A stretch of 25,802 nucleotides of DNA. It comes from an uncultured Collinsella sp. Its GTDB lineage: Bacteria; Actinomycetota; Coriobacteriia; Coriobacteriales; Coriobacteriaceae. Of the stretch, positions 1,948-23,501 are shown one piece after another (position 1 is the first letter of the stretch; every line of letters begins with the position of its first letter). The DNA lies in contig CAAFPY010000024.1 in the NCBI GenBank assembly GCA_900764955.1, positions 1 to 25,802 on the forward strand. The letters are read 5' to 3'. The notes beneath the pieces were generated by a model. It was not told the DNA's origin, did not search any database, and was given only the letters and a program-made list of their open reading frames with translations. The position numbers were made by a program, and so were the translations under genes.

Positions 1948-2011
1948 GCTCGACGCTGTGCGGGCTCAACATAGGGGCGCTGTCCTTGTTGGGCCGTTTG
2001 TGCCCGGGGCG

Positions 2012-4603: not shown

Positions 4604-4642
4604 GGATCCTCCTTGGCTCGATTGATCTGCTGCATAGCACAG

Positions 4643-4671
4643 ATTATGGACGCGTCGGCGCGTTCTGCTAA
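4643..4671 (-). promoter_or_regulatory. Predicted promoter of the GH106-like gene with palindrome in its spacer
   Basis: On the minus strand TTAGCA (4671-4666) is followed after exactly 17 bases by CATAAT (4648-4643), 40 bp before the start codon. The spacer contains ACGCG-TCGG-CGCGT (4650-4663), a plausible operator for the divergent AraC regulator or the RpiR regulator. The region also serves as the upstream region of the AraC gene. No binding data are implied. Confidence 0.5.
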
Positions 4672-4717
4672 TATCTGAATCACGACGAACTATGACCAAA
4701 TCAACGATTGGCAAGCC

Positions 4718-7320
<2,603 letters not shown>

Positions 7321-7357
7321 TTGACAAGATGAGTGCCACCGGGGAAAGCCTTGGGAC

Positions 7358-7376
7358 GGGCTCTCGATTCGAGCCC
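7358..7376. repeat. Weak hairpin after the GH1 gene
   Basis: GGGCTC (7358-7363) and GAGCCC (7371-7376) form a 6-bp stem with a 7-nt loop between the GH1 stop and the next promoter. There is no T-tract, so it is at most a weak terminator. Confidence 0.3.
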
Positions 7377-7381
7377 TCACC

Positions 7382-7410
7382 TTAGCAATTTGATCATTTG
7401 GCACTATAAT
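7382..7410 (+). promoter_or_regulatory. Sigma70-type promoter of the PTS EIIA gene
   Basis: TTAGCA (7382-7387) is separated by 17 bases from a perfect TATAAT (7405-7410), about 50 bp before the EIIA start. This suggests the EIIA gene is expressed independently of the upstream glucosidase. Confidence 0.75.
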
Positions 7411-7459
7411 CACCATAGGGATGCGCATAACGTTGCGCTTAATCAAGAGGAGAAAACAT

Positions 7460-7996
7460 ATGGGTCTGTTTGATATGTTCAAGAAGAAGGCTGAGCCCGC
7501 GGCTGTCGCTGCTCCGGCCTCCATCTCTGCTTCTGCCGGCGCCGACGTGCTGTGCTCGCCCGTCAAGGGCAAGGTCATCAAGATGGCCGACGTGCCCGAT
7601 CCCGTCTTTGGTGGCGAGGTTTTGGGCAAGGGCTGCGCCGTGTGGCCCGAGGACGATCTGGTCTACGCTCCCTGCGACGGCAAGGTGACCGTCACCATGG
7701 GTCACGCCGTGGGTCTGCAGTCCGATAGCGGCATCGAGGTTCTTGTGCACGTTGGCGTCGATACCGTCAACATGAACGGCGACGGCTTCGAGGGCTTCGT
7801 CAAGGCCGACGACGTCGTCAAGGCTGGTCAGCCCATGCTCAAGATCGACCGCGCCAAGATCGCCGCTGCCGGCTACAAGGACTGCGTTGTCGTGGCTGTG
7901 TCCAACACCGCCGAGTTCGCCGACGTCGAGCTCGCCGTCGAGGCTGACTCTGCTGTCGCCGCCGGCGATGTCATCGTCAAGGTCGTCCGCAAGTAG
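7460..7996 (+). CDS. Stand-alone PTS EIIA component, glucose family
   Basis: The 178-residue soluble protein is a single EIIA-Glc-type domain. It relays phosphate from HPr to an EIIB domain, and in some bacteria it also signals carbon status. The conserved histidines are H82 (in GHAVGL) and H97 (in LVHVGVDTV), 15 residues apart as in the family prototype, with H97 the expected phosphorylation site. The start at 7460 has GAGGAG seven bases upstream and gives the usual N-terminal GLFDMFKKK; the frame extends 13 codons upstream without support. It has its own promoter and a strong terminator, so it is monocistronic. It probably serves EIIBC permeases encoded elsewhere, possibly the one feeding the neighbouring phospho-beta-glucosidase. 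Confidence 0.95.
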   Translation: MGLFDMFKKKAEPAAVAAPASISASAGADVLCSPVKGKVIKMADVPDPVFGGEVLGKGCAVWPEDDLVYAPCDGKVTVTMGHAVGLQSDSGIEVLVHVGVDTVNMNGDGFEGFVKADDVVKAGQPMLKIDRAKIAAAGYKDCVVVAVSNTAEFADVELAVEADSAVAAGDVIVKVVRK

Positions 7997-10346: not shown

Positions 10347-12493
10347 ATGAGGTTACCGGCTTTTGCTAAGAAGGCGTTTAGGGGGGGGGCATAGTCGCGG
10401 CGCTTGTGCTTGCCATGCCCGCGCCCGCGCTCGCCTGCACGCAGGTTTACATCGGTAAGAACCAGACAACGACGGGCGATACCTATGTCGGTCGCGCCGA
10501 GGACTATTCACCTCGCTACTGCAAGACCTTTGGCGTGCAGCAGCCGATCGACAACCCTGTCTTCCGTTCTTTCGAGAACGATTCTGTGCCGGGGACCGGC
10601 TTTGAGTACACCTATCAGGGTCGCTCGTATCGTTACACCTATGTTCGTGACAATCCCGATGCGTGGGATGCCCAGGACGACGAGGCAGCGTCCCGCGTGT
10701 ATTCCGAGGCCGGCACCAACGAGCGCGGTGTCTCCGTTTCCGCGACGCTCACAACGGATTACAACGACGGAATCAAGGCTATCGACCCTCTTGTCGACAC
10801 GGGCATCGGCGAGTATAACCTGGCCGACTACCTGTTGAGCGTTTCGTCCTCGGCGCGCGACGGCGTGGAGAAGCTCGGCGCCATCATCGATCAGTATGGC
10901 TCTCAGGACTGCAACCAGATCGTCATTGCCGACAATACCGAGACCTGGATTTTCGCTCAGCTTTCGGGCCATCAGTGGATTGCCGTCAAGATGGGCGACG
11001 ACGTGGCGTCCGTTAATCCCAACATCGGCGGCCTGCAGTATAAGGTCAATCTTGACGATGCGAGTCAGTGCCTGCACTCGGCCGGTGTCGTGACGCTGCC
11101 CGAGTCCAACGGCGTTCTCGTAACCTATGACGACGGCACGCCGAACATCTTCAAGACGTATGGCAAGGAGAATTCGGGTTCGTCGCAGAATACGCGCCTG
11201 GCCCAGGGACGTGCTTACTTCGGTGCTGCCCTTGCGCCTCAGACGGACTATAACGTTGATGAACAGGGTCGCGTCACCTCGCTCATCGACCCGCAGCTGA
11301 CGTTTACGCCGGGCATCAAATCCGATACGTTCACGGCGTTGCGTTCCCTCGCTGCCCGCGGCGAGCAGGATGACAGCCTCAACGCCAATCTCAACAGTGC
11401 CCTGTATGCCATCGGCAACAACAGGACGACCGAGAGCAATATCTTCCAGATTCGGTCCGGCCTTTCCAGTGATATCGCCACGATTCAGTGGGAAGCGCTT
11501 TCGCGTTGCGAGTTCAGCGTGTACCTGCCCAGCTACTCTGCGCTGTTGACGGAAGTTCCGGCTGACTACTTCCCGGCGTGGAACACGGTGGACGGCACTT
11601 ATACAGGACGCAAGGACGACGTCGCGCAGGCTTTGGTCGAAAAGGACGGCAAGAACCTCGACTACGTCTTCATGGACATCAACACGCTCGCCTACAACAA
11701 CCGTGCCTCGATGGGTGAGAACGTGCGCGCCTACCTCGATGTCCTTCAGAAGCAGGTTATCGCCCAGCAGGACGTTGTTGACGGGTTGATGCAGGCAACC
11801 CCTGCCGATCAGCGCACGGACCTTGCCAACAAGGCGTTTGCCGCAGTGAGCGAACAGGTCTACAACAAGGCGGCCAAGCTTCTCGATGAGATGCGCGCCT
11901 ATGTGAATGCGGGAGATACCTCGAGTGCGTTTATGCCGAGCGACTATGACGCCGAGAATGGAACCTCCCGGACCCCGATTATGTACGCGTCCGCTTTTGT
12001 TGCTCCCAGCATCACGGCTCAGCCGCAGTCGGTAACGTGTGCTCAGGGCGCTGAGGCCAAGCTGAGCGTTGCCGCGACGGTTGATGACAGCGTGGATGGC
12101 TCGGATGCCCAGCTTACCTACCAGTGGTTCGTCAAGGGCGAGGACGGTAACTTCTCTGCCATCGACGGGGCGACGGCGGCTGAGTACGTCGCCGCGACGA
12201 CCGAGGTCGGTTCAAAGGTGTATCGCGTTGAGGTGACGAGTGCTGCCGGGCTGGTTTCCACGTCCGATGAAGCGACGGTGACCGTGACGCAGGCTGCGCA
12301 GGAGGAGCCTGGGCAGAAGCCCGGTCAGAAGACGGATGTGAAGACGGACGTCAAGACCGATACCGCCAAGAAGGCGACCAAGGGAGGGCTTGCCAAGACC
12401 GGTGATTCGTCTGTGGTGATCGTGGCGCTTCTGACGGTGGCTGGAGTTCTGGCCGTTATGGGGGCCGTGCTTATCCGCAAGCGTGCGAATTAA
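10347..12493 (+). CDS. Secreted C69-family peptidase, sortase-anchored; frameshifted at a poly-G tract
   Basis: An ATG at 10347 with GGAGGGGA upstream starts a signal peptide, but the frame hits TAG at 10392 because of nine G at 10381-10389. One extra G restores a 715-residue protein with a charged N-terminus, hydrophobic core and an ALA cleavage site directly before C31. C69 peptidases are N-terminal-nucleophile hydrolases, so signal-peptide removal would itself expose the catalytic Cys (CTQVYIGKNQTTTGDTYVGRAEDY). The catalytic domain covers roughly the first 500 residues. An Ig-like domain follows (ITAQPQSVTCAQGAEAKLSV onward), then a Lys/Thr-rich linker, the sortase-type signal LAKTGD, a membrane helix and a RKRAN tail. 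If the frameshift is real, translation may still begin at GTG 10406 without a usable signal peptide. Likely role: dipeptidase or amidase at the cell wall. Confidence 0.85.
10381..10389 (+). repeat. Homopolymer of nine G inside the C69 signal-peptide region
   Basis: The tract separates the start codon and n-region (10347-10380) from the rest of the open frame. Lengths of 7 or 10 G would put both parts in one frame; 9 does not. Homopolymer slippage or a sequencing/assembly error would both explain it. Confidence 0.9.
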
Positions 12494-12526
12494 CCGGAGC
12501 GGGTCATAGACGACAGCCCTAACTAA

Positions 12527-12562
12527 AAACGGTCCCGTACGAGTAATCGTGCGGGACCGTTT
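12527..12562 (+). terminator. Terminator after the C69 peptidase gene
   Basis: 15-bp arms (12527-12541 and 12548-12562, one G-U pair) enclose a 6-nt loop. An A-run precedes and T-richness follows, so it may work in both directions. Confidence 0.85.
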
Positions 12563-12581
12563 GCTTGAGCTAAAGCAAAAT

Positions 12582-12700
12582 GAGCGGGCCAAAAGCCCCC
12601 CGTGGGACTGAGGGGGCCAAAAGTCCCTGTTAAAACGCTTAAATGGCTTCTAACAGGTACATTTTGCCCCCTCAGCCCACGGGGGACATTCGGGCCGCTC
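12582..12700. repeat. 120-bp palindromic element, copy 2
   Basis: This stretch is nearly identical to 10005-10124, from GAGCGGGCC to GGCCGCTC, including the core TTAAAACGCTTAAATGGC and CCTGTTA/TAACAGG inner arms. The two copies bracket the peptidase gene in the same orientation. Confidence 0.85.
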
Positions 12701-12767
12701 AATCTTGTGGGCAGGGACGGCTCGGTGGACGGCTGGCGATATGGGCTGCCTATAGGCGGTTATCCGG

Positions 12768-12781
12768 GAGCCATATGGCTC
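12768..12781. promoter_or_regulatory. Perfect 14-bp palindrome GAGCCATATGGCTC
   Basis: A fully symmetric site located 26 bp before the predicted -35 box of the riboswitch-controlled gene. It could be a regulator binding site; no regulator is assigned. Confidence 0.4.
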
Positions 12782-12807
12782 GGATATGGCGGTTTTTGTG
12801 TAGTGCA

Positions 12808-12837
12808 TTGACCGATTTACCTGCGGTAACGTACACT
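12808..12837 (+). promoter_or_regulatory. Predicted promoter of the riboswitch-controlled gene
   Basis: TTGACC (12808-12813) and TACACT (12832-12837) are 18 bases apart. Transcription would start around 12844, just before the riboswitch aptamer. Confidence 0.6.
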
Positions 12838-12854
12838 TCCTCCGTTAAAAAATA

Positions 12855-12972
12855 GAAGCCGGAGCACGGGTGCGCGCGAGTGCATAAAGGGGAATCGGGT
12901 GAGAATCCCGAGCAAGGCGGTTACTGTGTGCGGGCGCGCCCGCGAGTCAGATTACCTGCCCGTGCTCTTCTC
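12855..12972 (+). ncRNA. Cobalamin riboswitch
   Basis: The closing stem P1 pairs 12862-12870 (GAGCACGGG) with 12959-12967 (CCCGTGCTC), nine perfect base pairs. Inside lie the conserved core AGGGGAATCGGGTGAGAATCC at about 12887-12907, the ACTGTG segment near 12923-12928, a GCGGGC/GCCCGC hairpin, and the 3' box GAGTCAGATTACCTGCC at 12944-12960. This ordered set is the adenosylcobalamin/cobalamin aptamer signature. It lies in the 5' leader of the large surface protein, whose start codon is about 175 nt further on. High B12 would be expected to reduce expression. Confidence 0.9.
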
Positions 12973-13097
12973 GAAACCGAGGGCCTCTCTGTTTGCCGCT
13001 GGATTCCGGTCTACAAGGGGTGCTGCTGAGCGTGCGTTTTGCTGCCGATAGGGTGGCTGACGTGCGCCTTTGTGCTGCCGGGGCATCGCCTGCCCCG

Positions 13098-13140
13098 CCT
13101 TCTTCGCCACGGCTCTATTGCAAGTTCGCGAAAGAAGGAG
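13098..13140 (+). promoter_or_regulatory. Candidate ribosome-binding-site-sequestering stem of the riboswitch
   Basis: CCTTCTTCGC (13098-13107) pairs with GCGAAAGAAGG (13128-13138), ten base pairs with a single A bulge. The right arm contains most of the AAGGAG ribosome binding site that serves the GTG at 13146. This is the usual design for translational control by riboswitches in Actinobacteria. Confidence 0.6.
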
Positions 13141-13145
13141 AACGG

Positions 13146-16100
13146 GTGACGCGAAACAACATTATGCTCAAGCGCCTGGGAGCCGCTGCTTTCTCGGTGC
13201 TACTCGTCTGGTCGATGCCGGGTACGTCAGCATTTGCCGAGGGCATGGCAGAAATCGCTGTGCAGGCGCAGGCCCAGGCCTCGCAGCAGGCGGATGCTGC
13301 CGAGAATGCCGACGAGACGAGTTTCACTGCGGACGAGCAGACGGGTGCTGAAGGCGCCGAGGCGTCGGCGGACGAGGCAAGATCCGACGTTGCTCCGTCT
13401 GCCGATGAGGGGCTTGCCGCCATGCTGAGTGCGGACGGGCAGAACGCCGCCGCGGTGAACGTCGACGATGACGACGCCGATGTTCAGCAGGCACGTGACG
13501 TGCGTGTCGCCAAGGCCGGCGAGACTGTGATGGTCTCTTCTGCCGATGAGCTGCCCACCACCATCGAGGCCGGGGCTGTCGTGAAGCTCGCGGCGAATAT
13601 CAGTCTTGGCGCCGACCAGCAGATCGAGACCGTGGCCGGCACGCTCGATGGCCAGGGCCACAGCACCGTGCTTAACGGCAAGGCACTTGCGAAGAGCGTG
13701 ACTGGCACGGTGCAGAATCTGGGCGTGACGGGCCGGGCAACCATGGGCGATTATGAGGGCGCCCTTGCGATCAATTGCTCGGGAACCGTGCAGATGTGCT
13801 GGTCGACGGCCACTTTGAGCGATGGCGGCTCTTGGGCCGATTACGGTGGCCTGGTGGGAACGCTCAACGGTGGGTCTGTAATCAACTCCTATGTTTCCGG
13901 ATCGATGTCGGGCTTTTGCGCCCACGGCCTTGTTGGATATTACAAGTCTGGCACCGTGGCCAACAATCTGTTCACTGTGGGCGATCAGGCGTGCGGCTAC
14001 AAGGTCGATTCTTCCTTCGGCAGCAAAATCTCTGTCGACGACCTCAAGACCCAGGCCTCGGTCGATAAGCTCAACACCGATGCTCCTGCCACCGGCTTTA
14101 GCTGGTCTGCACAGGGCGGTTTGCCCGTGCTGGTCTCGGGCAGCGCCGTGGTCGTCGTGAACAAGGGTGCCCTCAAGGCCGCCATCGACGATGCCAGCGC
14201 CAAGGTCGAGGGCGACTACACGGCCAAGAGCTGGTCCAAGCTCGCCGAGGCCCTTGCGAACGCCCAGGACGTCTACGCCAACGATGACGCTGCACAGGCC
14301 GAGGTCAACGCTGCAACCAAGGCACTCACCGATGCCACCGCCGCGCTCGAGAAACCCAAGCCCACTGAGCCCGTGGCTCAGCCGCAGAGCGTAGTGCACC
14401 TGAGCTCGCAGAGCGACCTCGACGCCTTCATGGGCAAGTTCAAGCCTGCCGACGTCGACGCCTACTACGTCCTCGACAACGACATCACCATCGACGACGA
14501 GTACTTCTTTGCCCCCACGGGCATGCTCGCGGGTACGCTTGATGGTCAGGGCCACGCCATCACCTTCACCAACGGCGGTGGCGTGAAGTCGCTCATGGAC
14601 GGCGTTGCCTCCACGGGCGTGGTGCAGAACATCTCGTTCGCCGGCGAGCTGAAGCGGGCGACGGACGGCAAGGCGTTCGGCCCCCTGGGCAACAAGGTTC
14701 AGGGCGCCGTGCTCAACTGCTCCACGAGCGTGACCGGCAAGGGCGTAGCGGGCTTTGCGCGCACGCTCGACGGCGGCATCGTGTCCAACTGCGTTTCGAC
14801 CTCCAAGGGCACGGCGGGCGCGCTGTTCGCGACCTATAGCGCGGGCCAGCTCGTCAACACCTACTGGGGCGCATTCCTCACCAACAAGATGGGCGCTCCC
14901 GCCTCGGCGCTCGTCAACTCCTATGCTGTCGACCCCGCTGACATGGCCACCGATGCCTTCGCCGATCTTATCAACGCCAACTGCGGCGCCAACGGCAGCA
15001 GCTGGGGTATCGATAAAAATGGCACGCCGGTCTTTGGCTCGGGCAACAGCTACCAGGCGCCCGAGGACACCACGCCCGACGACGCCTACACCGTGAGCTT
15101 CACGGCCAACGACGGCGCCAGCCAGACGGTTGCCGGCCATATGCTCGAGGTTTCGCCTGATGCTGTGGACGCCTACCGCAAACTTGGCGTCTTTGCACTT
15201 AAGGGCGTCCCGGCCACGAGCACCATCACCTGGGGCACCGATGACGCCAACCGCGGCAACATCGGCATCAACGAGTCCACGGGAGAGCTCTACATCTACG
15301 ACAACGCTACCGGCACGGTGACCGCCACCGAGCACAAGGCCGATGGCTCCGAGCAGACCGTGGCTACCATCAAGATCAAGGCCAAGGCCAAACAGTTCGA
15401 CGACTTTGAGCTGTGGTATCGTGCCTCCGACGGCACCGTGAGCAACGTGACCGATGGTGCGGCTACCGTCCAGGGCTCCGAGGTGCGCAACCTCGAGATT
15501 CGCGTGCATTACGTCGACGCCGATAAGGGCGAGTACGTGCCCGTCTCGTTCAGCCGCTTCCACTTTGCCTCGAGCGATCCTACGACCATCTACAGCAACG
15601 ACTACTCGGCCTGCTTTTACTTCAAGCATGCCGGCAGTGCCACGATCACCGTTACCCCGCGCGACGCCGCATCTGCGGGCGCCGGCTCCAAGAGCGTGAC
15701 GCTGACGTCAGAAGCCGTGGCCGCCACGTCCATCTCGATGGGCTACAACGAGGACGGCGCCACCGTCTACCTGCAGGGCCGCAACCCACTCTCCGAGTGC
15801 GGCGCGTTTTTGACCGATCACGCACGCCCCGTGGTGACGCCCGACAACGCCACCAACCGCGACAACTTTACCGTGACGAGCAGTGATCCTGCCGTGGCGG
15901 CCTACACTACCGCGGGCGAGATCGGCTACACGGCGTACAAGGCCGGCACCACCACGTTTACCGCGACGCTGCCCGACACGGACGCCGATGGCAAGGTCAT
16001 CAGCGCGTCGCTCGACGTGACTTATGCCTACCAAAATCCGCTTGCGAGCGTGACGGCCGGTACGGACAGCCTCTACCTCAAGGCCGGCTCGGCGCAAAAG

Positions 16101-17666
16101 CTCGACCTGACCTTTACCGGTAAGAACGACGCGGATGGCTGGAGCGTGACCGAACCCGGCCTCACCTGGACGTTCAAGACGCTCGACGGCAAGGACGCCT
16201 CGGGGATCGTGAGCATCGACCGCAACGAGAAGGGCGCTTGGAAGCACGTCGACGGCGCTCCCGACGACGGCCTGTACGTGGCCTCGAGCGACTACACGGT
16301 GACGGCGCTTTCGGCCGGCACGGTGGTCGCGACGGGTACGCCGGTGGACACGACTGCCCCCGCCGATCCCGTGACGCTTGCCATCACCGTGGCCGGTGTG
16401 GCCGCGAGCCCCGCCACGAGTGAGTCCGCCTCGGCGGGCATCGACGCTGCCGCTGCGTTCATCGACGCGCGCCGCAGCTCCGACGCCTTCCAGTTCGGCG
16501 ACGAGTGGGAGATCTACGACTTTGCCAAGGCGGGCCGCAAGATCGATTCCAAGCTGCTCGACAACTACCATGCCTCGCTGGCCGAGCACAAGGCCGAGTG
16601 GGGGAGTGCGACCTGCGCTCTGACCGAGACCGAGCGTGCGGCGCTGGCTCTCTCCGCCATAGGCAAGGACATCACCAACTATGACGGCGTCAACCTGGTC
16701 GAGCTCATCTGCAGCCGCACCGATATGACGCGCGCCAACGAGAAGATCTTCGCGCTGATGGCGCTCAATGCGAGCGGCTCGGATGCGCCCGCCGGCTCCG
16801 CCTGGACGTGCGCGAGTCTCGTGGATGCCGTCTGTGAGCTCCTCGGCAGCGACGAGGCTGTGGAGGGTACGCGCCTGGGCGACGTGGACCTGACGGCTAT
16901 GGCGATCCAGGCCGTGGCGCCTTACGCGGTTGACACCAAGGTCGATGCTGCCATCGAGAATGGCCTCTCCTACCTCAAGGGCAAGATGAATGCGGGCACC
17001 TGCGACTTTGGTTCTGCCGAGGCCAATGCTCAGGTGATCCTTGCGCTGCTTTCGCTCGACCGTGACCCGGCCAACCCCGTCAACGGGTTTGCAAATGCCG
17101 CGACCAACGTGGTGTGTGCGCTGGACCTGTACCGCGTGGACGGCGGCAACGGCTATGCGCACAGCAAGGGCGGCACGGCCAACGCCATGGCGACCGAGCA
17201 AGCGCTCCGCGCGCTCACGACGTATCGTGTCTCCTCGGGAGAGACGATTGCCTGGAAGACGGCCGTGATGGCGGGCAAGGACTCGAGCAGCAACGACCCG
17301 CAGAAGCCCACGGTGGCGCCGGGCGTTCTGACGCTGGGTACCGGGTCGGCCAGCGGTGCCGGCAACGGAACCGGCGGTTTTGCGGCCGTGATGGCTCCTG
17401 TGGCCGCCAAGGCAGCTGGCGATTCCAAGGACGAGGCTGAATCCGGCAAGAAGGATTTGACGGAGTCTTCCGTCGCCGGTAAGACAGACAAGAGCGGCAA
17501 AAAGTCGGGCACGTCCGGCAAGACCGCCGCGTTGAGCGCCGGCGCCGCCAACAAGGCTGCGGACGCGGGTCCAAACGGCTTTGCTATCGCTGGCGTTGCC
17601 GTGGGCATCGTCGGTATCGGGGCCGTCGGCGGCTGGTTTGTCTACACCAAGCGCCGCGCGGCGTAG
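13146..17666 (+). CDS. Large membrane-anchored surface protein with beta-helix, FIVAR, Ig-like and alpha/alpha-toroid regions; B12-controlled
   Basis: The 1506-residue product starts at GTG 13146 with AAGGAG five bases before it; ATG 13164 is the alternative, and the open frame upstream to 12993 overlaps the leader. A signal peptide ends near AFA (about residue 32). Next come an acidic linker, a GLUG/beta-helix-like part (about 165-262, GTLDGQGHSTVL), a FIVAR-like helical module (about 337-406), a second beta-helix-like part (about 417-639, GTLDGQGHAITF), and several Ig-like strands (about 645-1090). A helical region (about 1092-1365) resembles the alpha/alpha toroid of prenyltransferase and transcobalamin/intrinsic-factor alpha domains. 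A disordered KS-rich linker, a membrane helix (about 1478-1500) and a KRRAA tail close it. No LPXTG-like sortase motif is recognisable. The cobalamin riboswitch in its leader suggests a role in corrinoid binding; that is inference. Confidence 0.85.
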   Translation: MTRNNIMLKRLGAAAFSVLLVWSMPGTSAFAEGMAEIAVQAQAQASQQADAAENADETSFTADEQTGAEGAEASADEARSDVAPSADEGLAAMLSADGQNAAAVNVDDDDADVQQARDVRVAKAGETVMVSSADELPTTIEAGAVVKLAANISLGADQQIETVAGTLDGQGHSTVLNGKALAKSVTGTVQNLGVTGRATMGDYEGALAINCSGTVQMCWSTATLSDGGSWADYGGLVGTLNGGSVINSYVSGSMSGFCAHGLVGYYKSGTVANNLFTVGDQACGYKVDSSFGSKISVDDLKTQASVDKLNTDAPATGFSWSAQGGLPVLVSGSAVVVVNKGALKAAIDDASAKVEGDYTAKSWSKLAEALANAQDVYANDDAAQAEVNAATKALTDATAALEKPKPTEPVAQPQSVVHLSSQSDLDAFMGKFKPADVDAYYVLDNDITIDDEYFFAPTGMLAGTLDGQGHAITFTNGGGVKSLMDGVASTGVVQNISFAGELKRATDGKAFGPLGNKVQGAVLNCSTSVTGKGVAGFARTLDGGIVSNCVSTSKGTAGALFATYSAGQLVNTYWGAFLTNKMGAPASALVNSYAVDPADMATDAFADLINANCGANGSSWGIDKNGTPVFGSGNSYQAPEDTTPDDAYTVSFTANDGASQTVAGHMLEVSPDAVDAYRKLGVFALKGVPATSTITWGTDDANRGNIGINESTGELYIYDNATGTVTATEHKADGSEQTVATIKIKAKAKQFDDFELWYRASDGTVSNVTDGAATVQGSEVRNLEIRVHYVDADKGEYVPVSFSRFHFASSDPTTIYSNDYSACFYFKHAGSATITVTPRDAASAGAGSKSVTLTSEAVAATSISMGYNEDGATVYLQGRNPLSECGAFLTDHARPVVTPDNATNRDNFTVTSSDPAVAAYTTAGEIGYTAYKAGTTTFTATLPDTDADGKVISASLDVTYAYQNPLASVTAGTDSLYLKAGSAQKLDLTFTGKNDADGWSVTEPGLTWTFKTLDGKDASGIVSIDRNEKGAWKHVDGAPDDGLYVASSDYTVTALSAGTVVATGTPVDTTAPADPVTLAITVAGVAASPATSESASAGIDAAAAFIDARRSSDAFQFGDEWEIYDFAKAGRKIDSKLLDNYHASLAEHKAEWGSATCALTETERAALALSAIGKDITNYDGVNLVELICSRTDMTRANEKIFALMALNASGSDAPAGSAWTCASLVDAVCELLGSDEAVEGTRLGDVDLTAMAIQAVAPYAVDTKVDAAIENGLSYLKGKMNAGTCDFGSAEANAQVILALLSLDRDPANPVNGFANAATNVVCALDLYRVDGGNGYAHSKGGTANAMATEQALRALTTYRVSSGETIAWKTAVMAGKDSSSNDPQKPTVAPGVLTLGTGSASGAGNGTGGFAAVMAPVAAKAAGDSKDEAESGKKDLTESSVAGKTDKSGKKSGTSGKTAALSAGAANKAADAGPNGFAIAGVAVGIVGIGAVGGWFVYTKRRAA

Positions 17667-17717
17667 CGAGCCTCTGCCTACCAGGTAAATACTGCAAGGA
17701 GTATGGTCTTGCAAAGC

Positions 17718-17847: not shown

Positions 17848-18882
17848 CTAGCAAATTCTCGGCAGCTGTTCTCCTACGAGCATGTCGAGAATACGGGTCG
17901 ATCCCCAGCCGGTGCGTACGCGCACGGCGGGACGGGCGCCCTCGGCAAGCGGCAGCACGCGACCGATAATGGCGGCATGCTCGCCGTAGCGCGCGGCGCG
18001 CATGGCTGCCAGCGCGGCATCGGCCTGCTCGGCCGGCACCACGGCGACCATCTTGCCCTCGTTTGCCACCTGCAGCACGTCATAGCCGAGCATCTCGCAA
18101 GCCGCCTGCACATCGGGACGCACGGGCACGGCGTCCTCATCGACCTCCATCGCAACGCCGCTGGCCTGGGCAAACTCGTTGAGCGTGGATGCCAGGCCGC
18201 CGCGCGTGGGGTCGCGGAAGCAGCGGGTGTCGGGGGCGGCGGCGAGCACGTCGGCAATCAGATGATTGAGCGGTGCGGCGTCGCTTTCGATGGTGCTCGA
18301 AAACGCCAGGGCCTCGCGTTGGCTCATGATGGCGATGCCGTGGTCGCCTAGCGTACCCGACACCAGGATGACATCGCCGGGCCGACAGTTTGCACCGCTG
18401 AGCGCTACGCCCGCGGGCACTTCGCCCACGCCGGCGGTATTGATGTAGACGCCGTCGGCACCTCCACGCTCGACCACCTTGGTGTCGCCGGTGATAATCT
18501 TCACGCCTGCCTCATGTGCCGTTTCGGCCATGGTCTGCACAATCTGGCGCAGCTTGTCCATGGGATAGCCCTCTTCGAGGATAAAGCCGCACGACAGGTA
18601 GCGCACGTTAGCGCCCGAGGTCGCGACGTCGTTGACGGTTCCACATACGGCGAGGCGGCCGATATTGCCGCCGGGGAAGAACTGCGGCGTTACCACAAAG
18701 CTGTCGGTCGACATGGCGATTCGCCCGCTTGCGGGCAGTGCGGCGACACCGGCATCGTTGCCTGCAAGCAGCTCGGGCGACCCAAAGGCATCCAGAAAGA
18801 CCTCATCGATAATGCGCTTCATCATCTGGCCGCCGGAGCCGTGGCCCAGCAGGACAGTGCTATCGGTGGCATTACGGGACAT
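17848..18882 (-). CDS. hypE: Hydrogenase maturation protein HypE
   Basis: HypE (344 residues) dehydrates the carbamoyl group placed on its C-terminal cysteine by HypF, producing the thiocyanate that becomes the cyanide ligands of the [NiFe] site. The essential Cys is present as the last residue, in the ending PRIC. PurM-like ATP-binding motifs are visible: HGSGGQ near the N-terminus, GNDAGV, STDSFVV, GDTKVV and DPTRGGL. The ATG at 18882 has GGAG eight bases before it. It is the last gene of the hyp operon, 48 bp after hypD. Length and motifs are normal for the family. Confidence 0.97.
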   Translation of the reverse strand: MSRNATDSTVLLGHGSGGQMMKRIIDEVFLDAFGSPELLAGNDAGVAALPASGRIAMSTDSFVVTPQFFPGGNIGRLAVCGTVNDVATSGANVRYLSCGFILEEGYPMDKLRQIVQTMAETAHEAGVKIITGDTKVVERGGADGVYINTAGVGEVPAGVALSGANCRPGDVILVSGTLGDHGIAIMSQREALAFSSTIESDAAPLNHLIADVLAAAPDTRCFRDPTRGGLASTLNEFAQASGVAMEVDEDAVPVRPDVQAACEMLGYDVLQVANEGKMVAVVPAEQADAALAAMRAARYGEHAAIIGRVLPLAEGARPAVRVRTGWGSTRILDMLVGEQLPRIC

Positions 18883-18930
18883 ATCGAAAACTCCAATCGT
18901 GGGTGGTGCCGGTACGCGGGGGCGTCCGGG

Positions 18931-20043
18931 CTAGTCGCGGTATCTAAAGTACGCCGCGCAGCTACCTTCGGAGCTCACCATGCACGGGCCGACGGGATGT
19001 TCGGGCGTGCAAGCGCGGCCAAACAGAGGACAGTCGCTCGGCGTGATGGCTCCGCGCAGCACGTCGCCGCAGCGGCACCCGCGTGGCTCGACCGTCGCCT
19101 CAACGGGCACATCAAAGCGGGCGCCGGCATCAAAGCGCGCGAATTCGGGTCGGATGGAAAGACCCGAATTCACAATCGGTCCCAGCCCGCGCCACGTTGT
19201 GTCGCACGGCTCAAACACCTGCTCGACCAGCTGGCGCGCCACGGGGTTGCCGTCAGCGTTGACGCCACGGCGGTAGGCGTTGTCGATTGCGGGCCTGTGC
19301 TCGACAACCATCTGGACCAGCATGCAGATGCCCTGCAAGATATCGACCGGCTCAAACCCGGTGACTACGCCGGGGGTCTCGAACTCATCGACCAAAAACC
19401 TAAAGGGTGCCAGGCCCGTGATGGTAGCGACGTGACCCGGCAGGATAAAGCCGTCGATGGCGGTCTCGGGGTCGTTGGAGATCGCACGCAGAGCCGGCGG
19501 CGTGGTCTTGTGAGCACAGTAGACCGAGAAGTTCTGGAGCCCGCGCGCGTCGGCCTCCAGGATAGCGGCGGCAATGGTGGGCGTTGTGGTCTCAAAGCCG
19601 ACGCCCATAAAGATGACCGGGCGTTCGGGATTTTGCTCGGCAATGTCGAGTGCGTCGAGCGGAGAATAGACGATGCGGATGTCGCGCCCCGCCGCCTTTT
19701 GCGCGGCAAGCGAGGTGGACGATCCGGGCACGCGCATCATGTCGCCAAAGGTGGTGATGATGGCGCCGTCCATGTTGGAAAGCGCGATTGCGTGATCGAT
19801 GTCGCGGTTGGCGGTGACGCAAACGGGGCACCCCGGGCCGCTTAGCAGTTTGAGCCCCGTCGGCATAATGGAGCGAAAGCCATAGCGGCCAATGCTCACG
19901 GTATGCGTACCGCAGACTTCCATAAGGTTGATGCTGCGGTTGCCGACAAGCTCATGAATACGATCGATGAGCTCGCGGGCCAGCTTGGGGTCGCGAAATG
20001 CCGAAAAGTCGATACCGGAGCGAACCGGCTGCGCCGCCGCCAC
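18931..20043 (-). CDS. hypD: Hydrogenase maturation protein HypD
   Basis: HypD (370 residues) is the [4Fe-4S] scaffold on which, with HypC, the Fe(CN)2CO unit is assembled. The signature cysteines are present: C44 in MEVCGTHT and C72/C75 in GPGCPVCVT. FMGVGFETTTP and the C-terminal cluster-binding cysteines (GCRCGD, DCPLFGRAC, GPCMVSSEGSCAAY) are also seen. It starts at GTG 20043, overlapping the last base of the hypC stop (TAGTG), which points to translational coupling with hypC. Confidence 0.97.
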   Translation of the reverse strand: MAAAQPVRSGIDFSAFRDPKLARELIDRIHELVGNRSINLMEVCGTHTVSIGRYGFRSIMPTGLKLLSGPGCPVCVTANRDIDHAIALSNMDGAIITTFGDMMRVPGSSTSLAAQKAAGRDIRIVYSPLDALDIAEQNPERPVIFMGVGFETTTPTIAAAILEADARGLQNFSVYCAHKTTPPALRAISNDPETAIDGFILPGHVATITGLAPFRFLVDEFETPGVVTGFEPVDILQGICMLVQMVVEHRPAIDNAYRRGVNADGNPVARQLVEQVFEPCDTTWRGLGPIVNSGLSIRPEFARFDAGARFDVPVEATVEPRGCRCGDVLRGAITPSDCPLFGRACTPEHPVGPCMVSSEGSCAAYFRYRD

Positions 20044-20303
20044 TAGTATGCCTCGGCCGGGTTGGTGGCGAGTTGGTCTTCTTCGGCCAGCTCGGTCATG
20101 GTATTGACGAGCTCGAGTGTCTCTTGGGCTTCCTGCTCGTCGACAATCTGAATGCCAAAGCCGGCGTGCACGAGAATATAGTCGCCTACCTGTGCCGTCG
20201 GCACGAGGCGCAGCGAAACGGGGCGCTCGATGCCCATCATGTCGACGGTCGCCTTAAGGTCGTCGTCGCGTTTGACCACTTTACCGGGAACGGCAAGGCA
20301 CAT
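20043..20303 (-). CDS. hypC: Hydrogenase maturation chaperone HypC
   Basis: The 86-residue protein begins MCLAVPGKV, with the invariant Cys2 that binds the iron unit and the hydrogenase large-subunit precursor. The family core GDYILVHAGFGIQIVDEQEA follows, then an acidic tail. The ATG at 20303 has GGGGA upstream. It overlaps hypD by one base, the usual hypC-hypD arrangement. The chaperone shuttles the Fe(CN)2CO unit from HypD to the hydrogenase. Confidence 0.97.
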   Translation of the reverse strand: MCLAVPGKVVKRDDDLKATVDMMGIERPVSLRLVPTAQVGDYILVHAGFGIQIVDEQEAQETLELVNTMTELAEEDQLATNPAEAY

Positions 20304-20404
20304 AATGTTCCCCTTTTATACGTTTTGCGCTGGACAGGCGCCTAATTACCCATCAGTTGATGGTAGCGCTCGCGGGAGTCACGAGCAAACGCGTTACACC
20401 TGTG

Positions 20405-20451
20405 AGACGGCGGCGCGCAGGCTGGCAAAACAGCCTATCGCAACGCCGTCT
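20405..20451 (-). terminator. Nested hairpin over the end of hypF
   Basis: Outer arms 20405-20412 and 20444-20451 (AGACGGCG/CGCCGTCT) enclose inner arms 20419-20424 and 20431-20436 (AGGCTG/CAGCCT). The hairpin overlaps the hypF stop codon and lies in the 131-bp hypF-hypC gap. With no clear T-tract on the minus strand it may trim rather than end the transcript. Confidence 0.45.
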
Positions 20452-22888
20452 GCGCGAGGCGAGCGCGAGCGATGGCGGCCTGACCGTAGGCGATGCAGCC
20501 GTCGTTGGCGGGTACAGCGTGGGGGACCAAGACGGCAAGACCGGCGTCTTTGAGTTCGTGGGTAAGGAGCTGAAGCAAAAGCCGGTTCATGAACACACCG
20601 CCCGAGAGCGCGACGGTATCGATGCCTTCGCGCGCGCAGATTTCGCGTGCGATGTGGGTCGTAGCGTGCGTAATGGCGATGTGAAACCCGAGGGCGAGCC
20701 GGTCGGCCGGCGCGCCTGCCTCGATTCCATTCAGAAGAGCTTCGATGAGCGGTTGGGGGTCCAAGATGGGGGAGTCGTCGGCAGACGTGAATACGCCTGT
20801 GTGATTGTCGTCGAGACGAACGGTCTTACCGCCGAGCGCGCGCCAGGCGGCGGCTTCGAGTTCTATGGCGGGTTCGCCCTCGTAGGTTGCCTTGCCGCAG
20901 ATGCCCAGAATCGCTGCCGCGGCATCAAAGAGACGCCCCATGCTGCTGGTACGCGGGCTGTTGATGCCGCGCTCGATCATGGTGGCTGTCACGCTGCGTG
21001 TTTGCTCGTCGAGGGTGCCCAATAGCCCCGCGGCACCCGGATGCTCGAGCAGGCCGAGCTCGCTCAGCAGGGCAAAGGCATTGCGCCGGGCATCGCGCAC
21101 GGATGCGGCTCCGCCTGGCAGCGCCCAGGTGCGCAGGTGCGCGGCGCGTTCAAAATCGGCAAGGCCGGCGATAAGAAACTCACCGCCCCATATGGTGCCG
21201 TCGGTGCCGGCACCCGTACCATCGAAGGCAATACCGAGGACGCGCGCATCGGGCGCAAGCCGGCCAGCGACAATCGCCTCTGCCATTACGCTCGCGATGT
21301 GCGCATGATGATGTTGGATTTCGATTAGCGGCAGACTGTGCTCCCGTGCCCGCTCACGCGCCCACTGGCTCGATAGATAGTTGGGATGCATGTCGCATGC
21401 CAGGGCGGCAGGCGTCAGGTCAAAGAGGTTTTCTAGACGTGCGCGGGCGGCGCTCCAGGCATCGAAGGTCGCGCCGTTTTCGACATCGCCGATATGCTGC
21501 GACACAAAACAGGCCACATGGCCGTCGGCGTCCTCGCGCGTGAGCGCGATCGTGGCTTTTTGCTGCGGCCCGCAGGCGAGCACGCAGGGCGCAGTGCCGT
21601 CGAGCGCCGGCAGCGACAACGGTTGCGGCGCATATCCGCGTGCACGACGCACAGGCATGACGGTGCCGTCGACCACACGTACCACGGAGTCGTCGTAGCG
21701 TGAGAGAATCGCACGGTCGTTGCCAAGTAGCGCGTCGGCGATGCCGGCGGCAACAAGATGTTCCCATGCAAGTGCATCGTCGGTCTCGATAGGTTCCTCG
21801 CTCAGGTTTCCGCTGGTCATGACCAGCGCGTGCATGCCATGCGACGAGGCAGCTGCAAGCAGCAGATGCTGAAGCGGTGTATAGGGGAGCATGACGCCGA
21901 GCTCGGGTAGATCGTGCGCGACGGATGGCGCGAGCGTAAGGCCGTCGGGGGAATCTCCCTCGCCAACAACACGGCGGCGCAGCGGCACAATGGGGCGGAT
22001 GCTGCCGGCCAGCAAGTCGCGCTCGGCATCATCGACATGGCACAGGCGTTCAGTATCGGCAAGGCTGCGCACCATAACGGCAAGCGGCTTGTTGCTGCGG
22101 CGCTTGCGACGGCGCAGCTCGACCACCGCCTGCTCATTGGCGGCGTTGCAGGCCAGATGGAATCCGCCCAGCCCCTTGATGGCGACAATACCGCCGCTGG
22201 CCAGCAGCTCGACACAGCGGTCAATAATGGCATCGCTGGTTTCGCGCGTGCTGCCGACGGCCGGCATCGCCCCCAGACCCTCGAGCTCCATGTCGCCCGC
22301 CGCCTCGCGCCAGGTAATATGTGGCCCGCAGTCAAAGCAGGCATCGGGCTGCGCATGAAAGCGCCGGTCAAGCGGGTCGCCATACTCTGCGGCGCACTCG
22401 GGGCACATAGGAAAGCAATCCATCGACGTGGCCGCTCGGTCATAAGGCAGCGACCGGATGATGGTAAAGCGCGGCCCGCAGTTGGTGCAGTTGATAAAGG
22501 GGTAGTGATAGCGTCGGTCGGCGGGGTCGAACAGTTCGCGCAGGCAGTCGTCACAGGTGGCGATATCGGGGGAGATGAGCGTCGTGTGCACGGTCTGATC
22601 CTGCGACGCTACAATACGAAAGGCCTGCTCATCGTCGGCATCCCAAGCGTCGGGCTCCAGGTCCTCAACAGCGACATGCTCAACGCGGGCCGCGGCAGGC
22701 GCGTGCTCCGACAGCGCGGTGACAAATTCGTCGAGTGCCTCGACTGAAGCATGCGCCTCGATGTGCACGCCATCGCCCGCGTTGAGCACCCAGCCGCAAA
22801 TGCCATGCGCCATAGCCTCGCGATACACAAATGGCCGCATGCCAACGCCCTGCACAATGCCCGTCTCATGAATATGCACATGCCGCAT
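20435..22888 (-). CDS. hypF: Carbamoyltransferase HypF
   Basis: HypF (817 residues) uses carbamoyl phosphate and ATP to carbamoylate HypE, the first step of cyanide-ligand synthesis. Domains in order: acylphosphatase (about 1-90, GIVQGVGMRPF), two zinc fingers starting at C112/C115 (CDDC...CTNC and CPEC...CFDC), a YrdC-like domain (about 205-390, GIVAIKGLGGFHLACNA and KPLAVMVR), and a Kae1-like domain with the HHHAH metal motif at 526-530. The ATG at 22888 has GAGGGGA upstream. The frame extends further upstream only as an antisense shadow of nikR. It is followed by hypC and preceded by nikR, across a repeat. Confidence 0.96.
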   Translation of the reverse strand: MRHVHIHETGIVQGVGMRPFVYREAMAHGICGWVLNAGDGVHIEAHASVEALDEFVTALSEHAPAAARVEHVAVEDLEPDAWDADDEQAFRIVASQDQTVHTTLISPDIATCDDCLRELFDPADRRYHYPFINCTNCGPRFTIIRSLPYDRAATSMDCFPMCPECAAEYGDPLDRRFHAQPDACFDCGPHITWREAAGDMELEGLGAMPAVGSTRETSDAIIDRCVELLASGGIVAIKGLGGFHLACNAANEQAVVELRRRKRRSNKPLAVMVRSLADTERLCHVDDAERDLLAGSIRPIVPLRRRVVGEGDSPDGLTLAPSVAHDLPELGVMLPYTPLQHLLLAAASSHGMHALVMTSGNLSEEPIETDDALAWEHLVAAGIADALLGNDRAILSRYDDSVVRVVDGTVMPVRRARGYAPQPLSLPALDGTAPCVLACGPQQKATIALTREDADGHVACFVSQHIGDVENGATFDAWSAARARLENLFDLTPAALACDMHPNYLSSQWARERAREHSLPLIEIQHHHAHIASVMAEAIVAGRLAPDARVLGIAFDGTGAGTDGTIWGGEFLIAGLADFERAAHLRTWALPGGAASVRDARRNAFALLSELGLLEHPGAAGLLGTLDEQTRSVTATMIERGINSPRTSSMGRLFDAAAAILGICGKATYEGEPAIELEAAAWRALGGKTVRLDDNHTGVFTSADDSPILDPQPLIEALLNGIEAGAPADRLALGFHIAITHATTHIAREICAREGIDTVALSGGVFMNRLLLQLLTHELKDAGLAVLVPHAVPANDGCIAYGQAAIARARLAQTALR

Positions 22889-22910
22889 GTGGCTTCCCCT
22901 CGTCAAAACC

Positions 22911-22988
22911 GACCAAAAAGGGACAGGTTTATTTTGGTCGGTAAAACTTCTAAACCTGCCAAAACAAACCTGTCCCTTTATGGCAGGT
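22911..22988. repeat. Interlocking inverted repeats between nikR and hypF
   Basis: Arms 22915-22937 and 22959-22981 match over 21 of 23 positions (AAAGGGACAGGTTT core). Two shorter hairpins compete with it: 22911-22918 with 22932-22939 (GACCAAAA/TTTTGGTC) and 22954-22960 with 22982-22988 (ACCTGCC/GGCAGGT). Only one long or two short stems can form at a time. It lies in the 118-bp gap of the nickel operon. Confidence 0.8.
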
Positions 22989-23006
22989 GCGCTGTGGGAA
23001 ATCCCG

Positions 23007-23501
23007 CTACAGCCCCAGGCTCTGCTTGGTGGCGGCGCACGTGAGCTCGCCGTGCTTAACGCCGCGCAGCCCCAGCAACCGGTCGGCCAGCTCGTAGACA
23101 CGCTCGCCGCGACCCTTGAGCGCCAGAATCTCCAGGCAGTTGTGGTGGTCCAGATGCACGTGCATGGTCGAGACGATCTCGTCGGTGTAGTCGTGCTGCA
23201 CCTCGTCCAGACGGCGCGCCAGATCGCCGGTATGGTGGTCATAGATCATGGTGAGCGAACCGATGACCTGCTCGTCGGGCGTGCGCATCTGTTCCTTGGC
23301 GATCGAGGCGCGAATCAGATCGCGTACGGCCTCGGATCGGTTAGCCACGTCACCACGGCGCGCGATCTGCTCGTCAAAGCGGCGCAGCAGGTCGTCGGGC
23401 GCGGTGACCGAAAAGCGGACCAGCTCGGAGCTGGAGCCGCTGTAGCGGCAGCTCGCATCGTCGTCCGCACCGTGATCGTGCGCGTGCTCGTGCTCGGCCA
23501 C
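23007..23501 (-). CDS. nikR: Nickel-responsive transcriptional regulator NikR
   Basis: NikR is a nickel-sensing ribbon-helix-helix repressor; here it is 164 residues. After a His-rich N-terminus (EHEHAHDHG), which may bind extra metal, comes a ribbon-helix-helix domain (about 26-68) and then an ACT-like nickel domain. The high-affinity nickel ligands are present: H89 in IYDHHTGDL, and H114, H116 and C122 in MHVHLDHHNCLEI. These match H76, H87, H89 and C95 of the E. coli protein. The start is GTG at 23501, one base after the stop of the small upstream ORF, so they are probably coupled. It likely adjusts hyp expression, and possibly nickel uptake, to nickel supply. Confidence 0.95.
   Translation of the reverse strand: MAEHEHAHDHGADDDASCRYSGSSSELVRFSVTAPDDLLRRFDEQIARRGDVANRSEAVRDLIRASIAKEQMRTPDEQVIGSLTMIYDHHTGDLARRLDEVQHDYTDEIVSTMHVHLDHHNCLEILALKGRGERVYELADRLLGLRGVKHGELTCAATKQSLGL

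Follow-up and report, generated by a model that had tools for sequence, protein, structure and literature searches.

This study concerns a cobalamin riboswitch and the surface protein gene lying directly behind it in a stretch of 25,802 nucleotides from an uncultured Collinsella sp. (GenBank assembly GCA_900764955.1, contig CAAFPY010000024.1), the whole of which is referred to as the window. An earlier note had proposed a cobalamin aptamer at 12855-12972 in the leader of a secreted, membrane-anchored protein of 1506 residues. With a cmscan search of the whole window, we observed one match above its gathering score, to the cobalamin riboswitch family RF00174 in a short form, at 12851-12977 on the forward strand (49.0 bits, with the cut-off at 31.5; E 1.3e-9), so the aptamer had been placed essentially right. 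Inside it, at 12945-12960 (+), lies an exact B12 box, AGTCAGATTACCTGCC, the only match in the window at up to two mismatches, with 0.01 expected by shuffling. The B12 box and the P3-P6 core of RF00174 are present, and the peripheral extension is much reduced, six bases standing for 61 model positions. The protein gene, P0001, runs from a GTG start with GAAGGAG just upstream of it over 13146-17666 (+) and encodes the expected 1506 residues.

P0001 looks like a secreted, membrane-anchored surface protein, in agreement with the earlier description. A signal peptide (residues 1-31, 13146-13238) and a C-terminal membrane segment with a KRR tail (residues 1478-1500, 17577-17645) were read by eye, and no LPxTG motif was found at the C-terminus in a sequence check. 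Between these ends, all on the forward strand, the AlphaFold2 models display a first beta-rich, solenoid-like region (residues about 127-272, 13524-13961), a FIVAR three-helix domain (residues 340-402, 14163-14351; PF07554 at E 9.9e-8 as well as modelled helices), a second beta-rich region (residues about 416-575, 14391-14870), a row of immunoglobulin (Ig)-like beta domains (residues about 589-1083, 14910-16394) and an alpha/alpha toroid (residues 1091-1363, 16416-17234), the last recognized by structure comparison too; beta and Ig-like modules joined to a toroid had likewise been expected. The N-terminal and stalk model reached a mean predicted local distance difference test score (pLDDT) of 78.7 and a predicted template modelling score (pTM) of 0.34, and a structure search with it brought up chiefly S-layer, cadherin and similar Ig-type arrays, with template modelling scores of about 0.1.

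The toroid, foreseen at residues 1092-1365 or so, was modelled over residues 1090-1400 with a mean pLDDT of 85.6 and a pTM of 0.85, its helices spanning 1091-1363, and the Foldseek ranks 1-10 were all transcobalamin. By model and structure comparison, P0001 therefore harbors an alpha/alpha6 toroid of the transcobalamin and intrinsic factor kind, with 12-18% identity to the listed transcobalamin chains in the structure search. Its relatives comprise 86 proteins at E <= 0.001, including DUF4430 proteins of Paenibacillus; aligned relatives, several of them DUF4430 proteins, share 25-50% identity with it. Profile searches with alignments A1 and A2 reached cyclases, TED proteins and prenyltransferases and not transcobalamin, so that homology between the toroid and transcobalamin is not shown by sequence, and a search of the PDB with the whole of P0001 as a single sequence gave no match. 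The family PF01122 gave no match to the window toroid and one among 13 A1 members, at E 0.048, and it was found in none of 36 genomes, but control sequences also gave no match there. Across the 64 rows of A2, which hold the window, locus L006 and 62 of the 79 toroid loci considered below, W1121, Y1141, R1164, D1248, T1250 and Q1352 are invariant. An enzymatic role for the toroid, as in terpene cyclases or sugar epimerases, with the riboswitch link reflecting some B12-dependent pathway, is very improbable. DxDD, the class II acid motif of squalene/terpene cyclases, was not found in the toroid, the sole D.DD of P0001 being at residue 107, and 62 of the 64 rows have M, I, V or L at position 1249; moreover, P0001 looks secreted and membrane-anchored, and its relatives adjoin transporter genes of the energy-coupling factor (ECF) type. 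The thioester motif of TED domains, GCGEQ, was not found either.

The leader carries several candidate control elements. A promoter-like site (TTGACC, 18 nt, TACACT) stands just 5' of the aptamer at 12808-12837 (+), by consensus match only, and is kept in loci L003-L005 and diverged in L006. At 12968-12983 (+), a terminator-like hairpin, a weak consensus match, overlaps the 3' end of the aptamer and is a possible transcriptional platform; three terminator-like sites were found in the region, against 0.9 in shuffles. Further down, a predicted hairpin at 13098-13138 (+) pairs part of the Shine-Dalgarno sequence, and a predicted outer helix at 13083-13152 (+) pairs the GTG start. The fold z score is -1.53 in the window and -1.08 to -2.72 in four orthologs, and each of the five leaders is predicted to pair at least part of the Shine-Dalgarno sequence or the start codon, L006 using a different sequence. 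These folds suggest that the riboswitch may shut expression at translation when cobalamin is ample; since shuffled leaders fold nearly as well and the terminator-like hairpin sits at the aptamer end, the folds do no more than suggest translational control. L5 was also inspected by eye for a kissing loop with a conserved hairpin further downstream; the two can pair in the window and not in L006, and the idea was dropped. Matches to microRNA families lay under their cut-offs and were taken as chance matches to long hairpins.

The window region was compared with the nearest available genome (G001) and that genome's kin, together called the 65 family genomes. Full-length orthologs of P0001 were observed in four of them, with 91% identity in G036, G037 and G039 and 54% in G034. 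RF00174 exceeded its cut-off in three of the 65, namely the three with the 91% ortholog and directly upstream of it, and weaker matches occurred in seven further genomes; the strict filters of this search miss weak matches, including that of G034. Scored against RF00174, three ortholog leaders reached 46.8-48.2 bits, and the G034 leader reached 25.7 bits at the same place, below the cut-off. This retention in four orthologs, one below cut-off, down to 54% protein identity, argues against a decaying aptamer that no longer regulates and merely precedes a constitutive surface protein, a reading which the shortness of the aptamer, an expression platform made up of candidate elements and the A-C mismatch breaking one P2/P3 pair in L003-L005 would favor. 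Also opposed to it are the exact B12 box and the P2/P3 helix: compared by hand in the A4 alignment register, the window and L006 keep nine pairs there, with three two-sided changes and one one-sided change. We regard such decay as improbable.

For a wider view, 79 toroid loci were taken, being the best 80 of 537 confirmed relatives in titled public genomes and mutually related. Nearly all are from Firmicutes and one from Nocardioides, many of them in metagenome-assembled genomes. DUF4430 (PF14478), which we take to be the transcobalamin C-terminal-like SLBB domain of Burroughs et al. (2007), was detected in 71 of the 79 loci and within the toroid open reading frame (ORF) itself in 51, with a profile of eight segments; since three of these came from toroid proteins, the profile is biased towards detection. 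An EcfS-like protein was found in 55 of the 79 loci and an EcfT-like protein in 53, the latter by a profile built on proteins without a named-family match (the proteins of L156 and L157 were scanned). In the 61 loci covered by the B12-box test, where boxes with up to two mismatches were accepted without a covariance model for each, 33 of 61 toroid ORFs had a same-strand box no more than 1.5 kb upstream, and among the remaining ORFs of at least 200 residues in the same loci 21 of 546 had one; the Fisher p of this comparison overstates independence, as the loci are related and only the best 80 of 537. In the genomes of 39 of the 79 loci, RF00174 matched in 36 and exceeded the cut-off in 33. Within the class of the window, a toroid at E <= 1e-6 is present in 44 of 396 genomes. 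Among 43 of these, 25 have a same-strand RF00174 match (E <= 0.001) no further than 7 kb upstream of the toroid gene (12 over the cut-off, 13 below), the 43 being 40 searched and three from the family search, with G438 of the 44 left out; among the RF00174 matches in the class toroid genomes searched, 26 of 55 are at toroid genes. The genomic context makes the B12 link strong, and the note's reading of a surface corrinoid-capture protein is supported.

The complete arrangement is seen in genome G112, where an operon runs riboswitch, toroid, DUF4430, EcfT-like, fused EcfA (EcfAA') and EcfS. The EcfT-like protein is without a family match and presumably of that kind, being named from its place and likeness. 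The ECF S component has family hits of the riboflavin or folate type, and because of its gene company we infer that corrinoids would be its cargo. The compact operon at 2005-7579 (-) of L156 holds riboswitch, toroid, DUF4430, EcfT-like protein, fused EcfA and EcfS, and its toroid protein has an LPXTG anchor match below cut-off.

Proteins of this kind have been described before. Burroughs et al. (2007) reported bacterial surface proteins that combine the toroid with a transcobalamin-like beta-grasp domain (SLBB) and with FIVAR and Ig modules and whose genes share operons with CbiO and CbiQ. The authors predicted that they scavenge B12 and proposed that the animal carriers were acquired from Gram-positives (PMC1796856); the word "riboswitch" is absent from the accessible text of that paper. 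Because of the domains in common, the relatives that carry toroid and DUF4430 are probably the proteins of that study. P0001 resembles them in its homologous toroid, secretion, FIVAR and Ig-like modules and predicted B12 scavenging, and its relatives likewise adjoin ECF-type genes, as far as the accessible text describes these proteins (PMC1796856). Thus, bacterial toroid B12 scavengers were already predicted in 2007, and P0001 differs in having no DUF4430 in or beside it and in standing directly behind its own cobalamin riboswitch. Compared with animal transcobalamin, intrinsic factor and haptocorrin, which are soluble, P0001 is membrane-anchored, lacks the C-terminal beta-domain, is not matched by PF01122 and keeps to the low identity with the listed transcobalamin chains given above. 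The BtuG and BtuH lipoproteins of Bacteroides are Gram-negative proteins of other folds, analogous and not homologous to P0001. As described in the available parts of the reports on them, they capture B12 at the surface of gut bacteria ahead of a dedicated transporter, which is like the role proposed for P0001 (PMC6143338, PMC8941943). ECF-CbrT of Lactobacillus delbrueckii is an ECF-type corrinoid uptake system, to which the EcfT-like, EcfA and EcfS proteins encoded with the toroid in the relatives are likened by type; it is a membrane transporter, whereas P0001 would be a surface capture protein, and the main text of that paper, so far as accessible, mentions neither DUF4430 nor a riboswitch (PMC5997447). 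For Clostridioides difficile, the accessible text of a 2024 review of its riboswitches names three of the cobalamin type, which precede genes for biosynthesis, a cobalt ECF system and BtuCDF-like proteins (PMC11477304). In openly licensed PubMed Central we found no paper that connects bacterial surface proteins resembling transcobalamin with a cobalamin riboswitch, though subscription work may exist, and no experiments on toroid surface proteins like P0001.

The partners that accompany the toroid in its relatives were found elsewhere in the genomes related to the window. In 14 genomes searched with PF14478, DUF4430 genes occur in all 14, the seven family genomes among them included, and in all four ortholog genomes a DUF4430 gene and the toroid gene are found on different contigs. 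The family DUF4430 protein has about 300 residues, and a far longer frame is also present in six of the seven genomes. Of the 65 family genomes, 61 encode an EcfS of the same family as in G112 and 59 a protein with a B12-binding domain, which would allow corrinoid import and use. Just 5' of a giant multi-DUF4430 gene we observed an AdoCbl-II-like element at 15945-16055 (-) in L151, 15256-15366 (-) in L152, 2454-2564 (+) in L153 and 12543-12659 (-) in L155, each below the Rfam cut-off (29-31 bits against 36.5). At E <= 0.01 such an element occurs once per genome in 52 of the 65 family genomes, over the cut-off in seven; in nine of the 52 cases EcfS follows at a distance of about 3 kb, and in five DUF4430 follows, the DUF4430 positions being those from seven family genomes. 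The Rfam models may under-score this subtype.

These observations bring up a tentative and rather doubtful idea, in which transcobalamin would be split. Its pocket would be shared by two giant surface proteins encoded far apart, one with the toroid alpha-domain and one with multiple DUF4430 beta-domains, both with a cobalamin riboswitch of their own and with membrane anchors that are alike at the C-terminus. The receptor would come together on the cell surface only if the two proteins are produced and are bridged by a corrinoid. In favor of it are the separate contigs of the two genes in all four ortholog genomes and the sub-cut-off AdoCbl-II-like leaders before the giant DUF4430 gene in G037 and G039, where the toroid is present; such leaders are also found in G001 and G007, both without a toroid. 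The last 31 residues of P0001 and of the giant DUF4430 protein share 55% identity, which is not significant with a low-complexity filter, and this short, partly low-complexity common tail is weak evidence. Against the idea, G034 with its 54% ortholog has no giant DUF4430 gene and no AdoCbl-II-like element in the family search, and the G036 locus is broken over contigs.

Taken together, we consider P0001 to be a surface protein with which a gut bacterium of the Coriobacteriaceae captures corrinoids and which cobalamin represses, with a probability of about 0.74, its binding and its B12 response being the inferred parts. Aptamer, features of secretion, toroid and genomic associations were observed; capture, hand-over and repression are proposed. 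At low cellular cobalamin, the leader would leave the gene open and P0001 would be made. The stalk of FIVAR, beta-rich and Ig-like modules would carry the toroid through the wall, and the toroid cavity would hold the corrinoid. A DUF4430 beta-domain protein whose gene lies elsewhere would perhaps close over it, as the transcobalamin beta-domain does over B12. The corrinoid would then be handed to an EcfT-EcfA-EcfS transporter, imported and used by a B12-dependent enzyme. With ample cobalamin, the riboswitch would shut expression, probably at translation.

Several observations weigh against this interpretation. DUF4430 is not in P0001 (a Pfam scan gave no PF14478 match) nor in the window (by a home-made profile). 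Neither DUF4430 nor ECF genes were found in the window, and the same holds for some 20 kb of surroundings of two among the four orthologs (L163, L164). A VIA-align comparison of the toroid does not single out transcobalamin. In the leader, the good folding of shuffles, the terminator-like overlap, which leaves translational control less firm, and the broken P2/P3 pair count on the same side. The lack of DUF4430 in P0001 or its neighbourhood, the VIA-align result and the very large stalk of Ig-like and FIVAR modules would also suit a scaffold or adhesin made when B12 is scarce, which belongs to the B12-uptake regulon and whose toroid binds another surface partner such as a wall polymer, mucin or a DUF4430 protein. 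The toroid nevertheless retains the family-invariant W, Y, R, D, T and Q, and relatives fuse toroid and DUF4430 in one ORF, as in transcobalamin, which makes this scaffold unlikely.

The surroundings of the gene are consistent with a private riboswitch. Upstream lies a C69 peptidase gene (10406-12493), with inverted repeats 3' of it, one of them, at 12770-12790, terminator-like, and downstream the hydrogenase maturation genes hypE, hypD and hypF stand in a row on the opposite strand (17848-23242, -), so the riboswitch can serve the P0001 gene alone. A 120-base imperfect inverted repeat at 12581-12701, between the peptidase gene and the riboswitch, was also noticed; a similar element precedes the riboswitch in L004, L005 and the overlapping loci of those genomes, and the exact pattern was found in no further locus among 194. 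With regard to mobile DNA, no phage record matched 12500-17700 in a near-mode search, and two plasmid records matched, both of Vescimonas fastidiosa and covering 11-18% of P0001, in the toroid. The group names Coriobacteriaceae and Coriobacteriia rest on relatives of HypD (18931-20043), a lineage record and inference; among the 120 matches listed, the three with an organism name are from Enorma massiliensis (76%), a Coriobacteriaceae bacterium (75%) and a Collinsella species (72%). Elsewhere in the window, an AraC-type regulator, a GH1 glycosidase and a phosphotransferase system EIIA domain protein in a row at 4718-7996 (+) look like an ordinary sugar-use cluster by gene content, and a 1016-residue frame at 2012-5062 (-) has a weak GH106 (rhamnosidase) match, below cut-off.

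In the P0001 gene, a toroid like that of transcobalamin stands in direct connection with a cobalamin riboswitch. Surface B12 capture by Gram-positive gut bacteria, of the sort that Bacteroides achieve with BtuG and BtuH, appears largely untested in the open literature, and the L156 operon offers a small model system for the whole uptake path. With P0001 and the pattern of toroid, DUF4430, ECF genes and riboswitch, the 2007 proposal of a bacterial origin for the animal B12 carriers becomes directly testable. P0001 is probably a B12-repressed surface protein of a human gut lineage, which may compete with the host and with other microbes for corrinoids.
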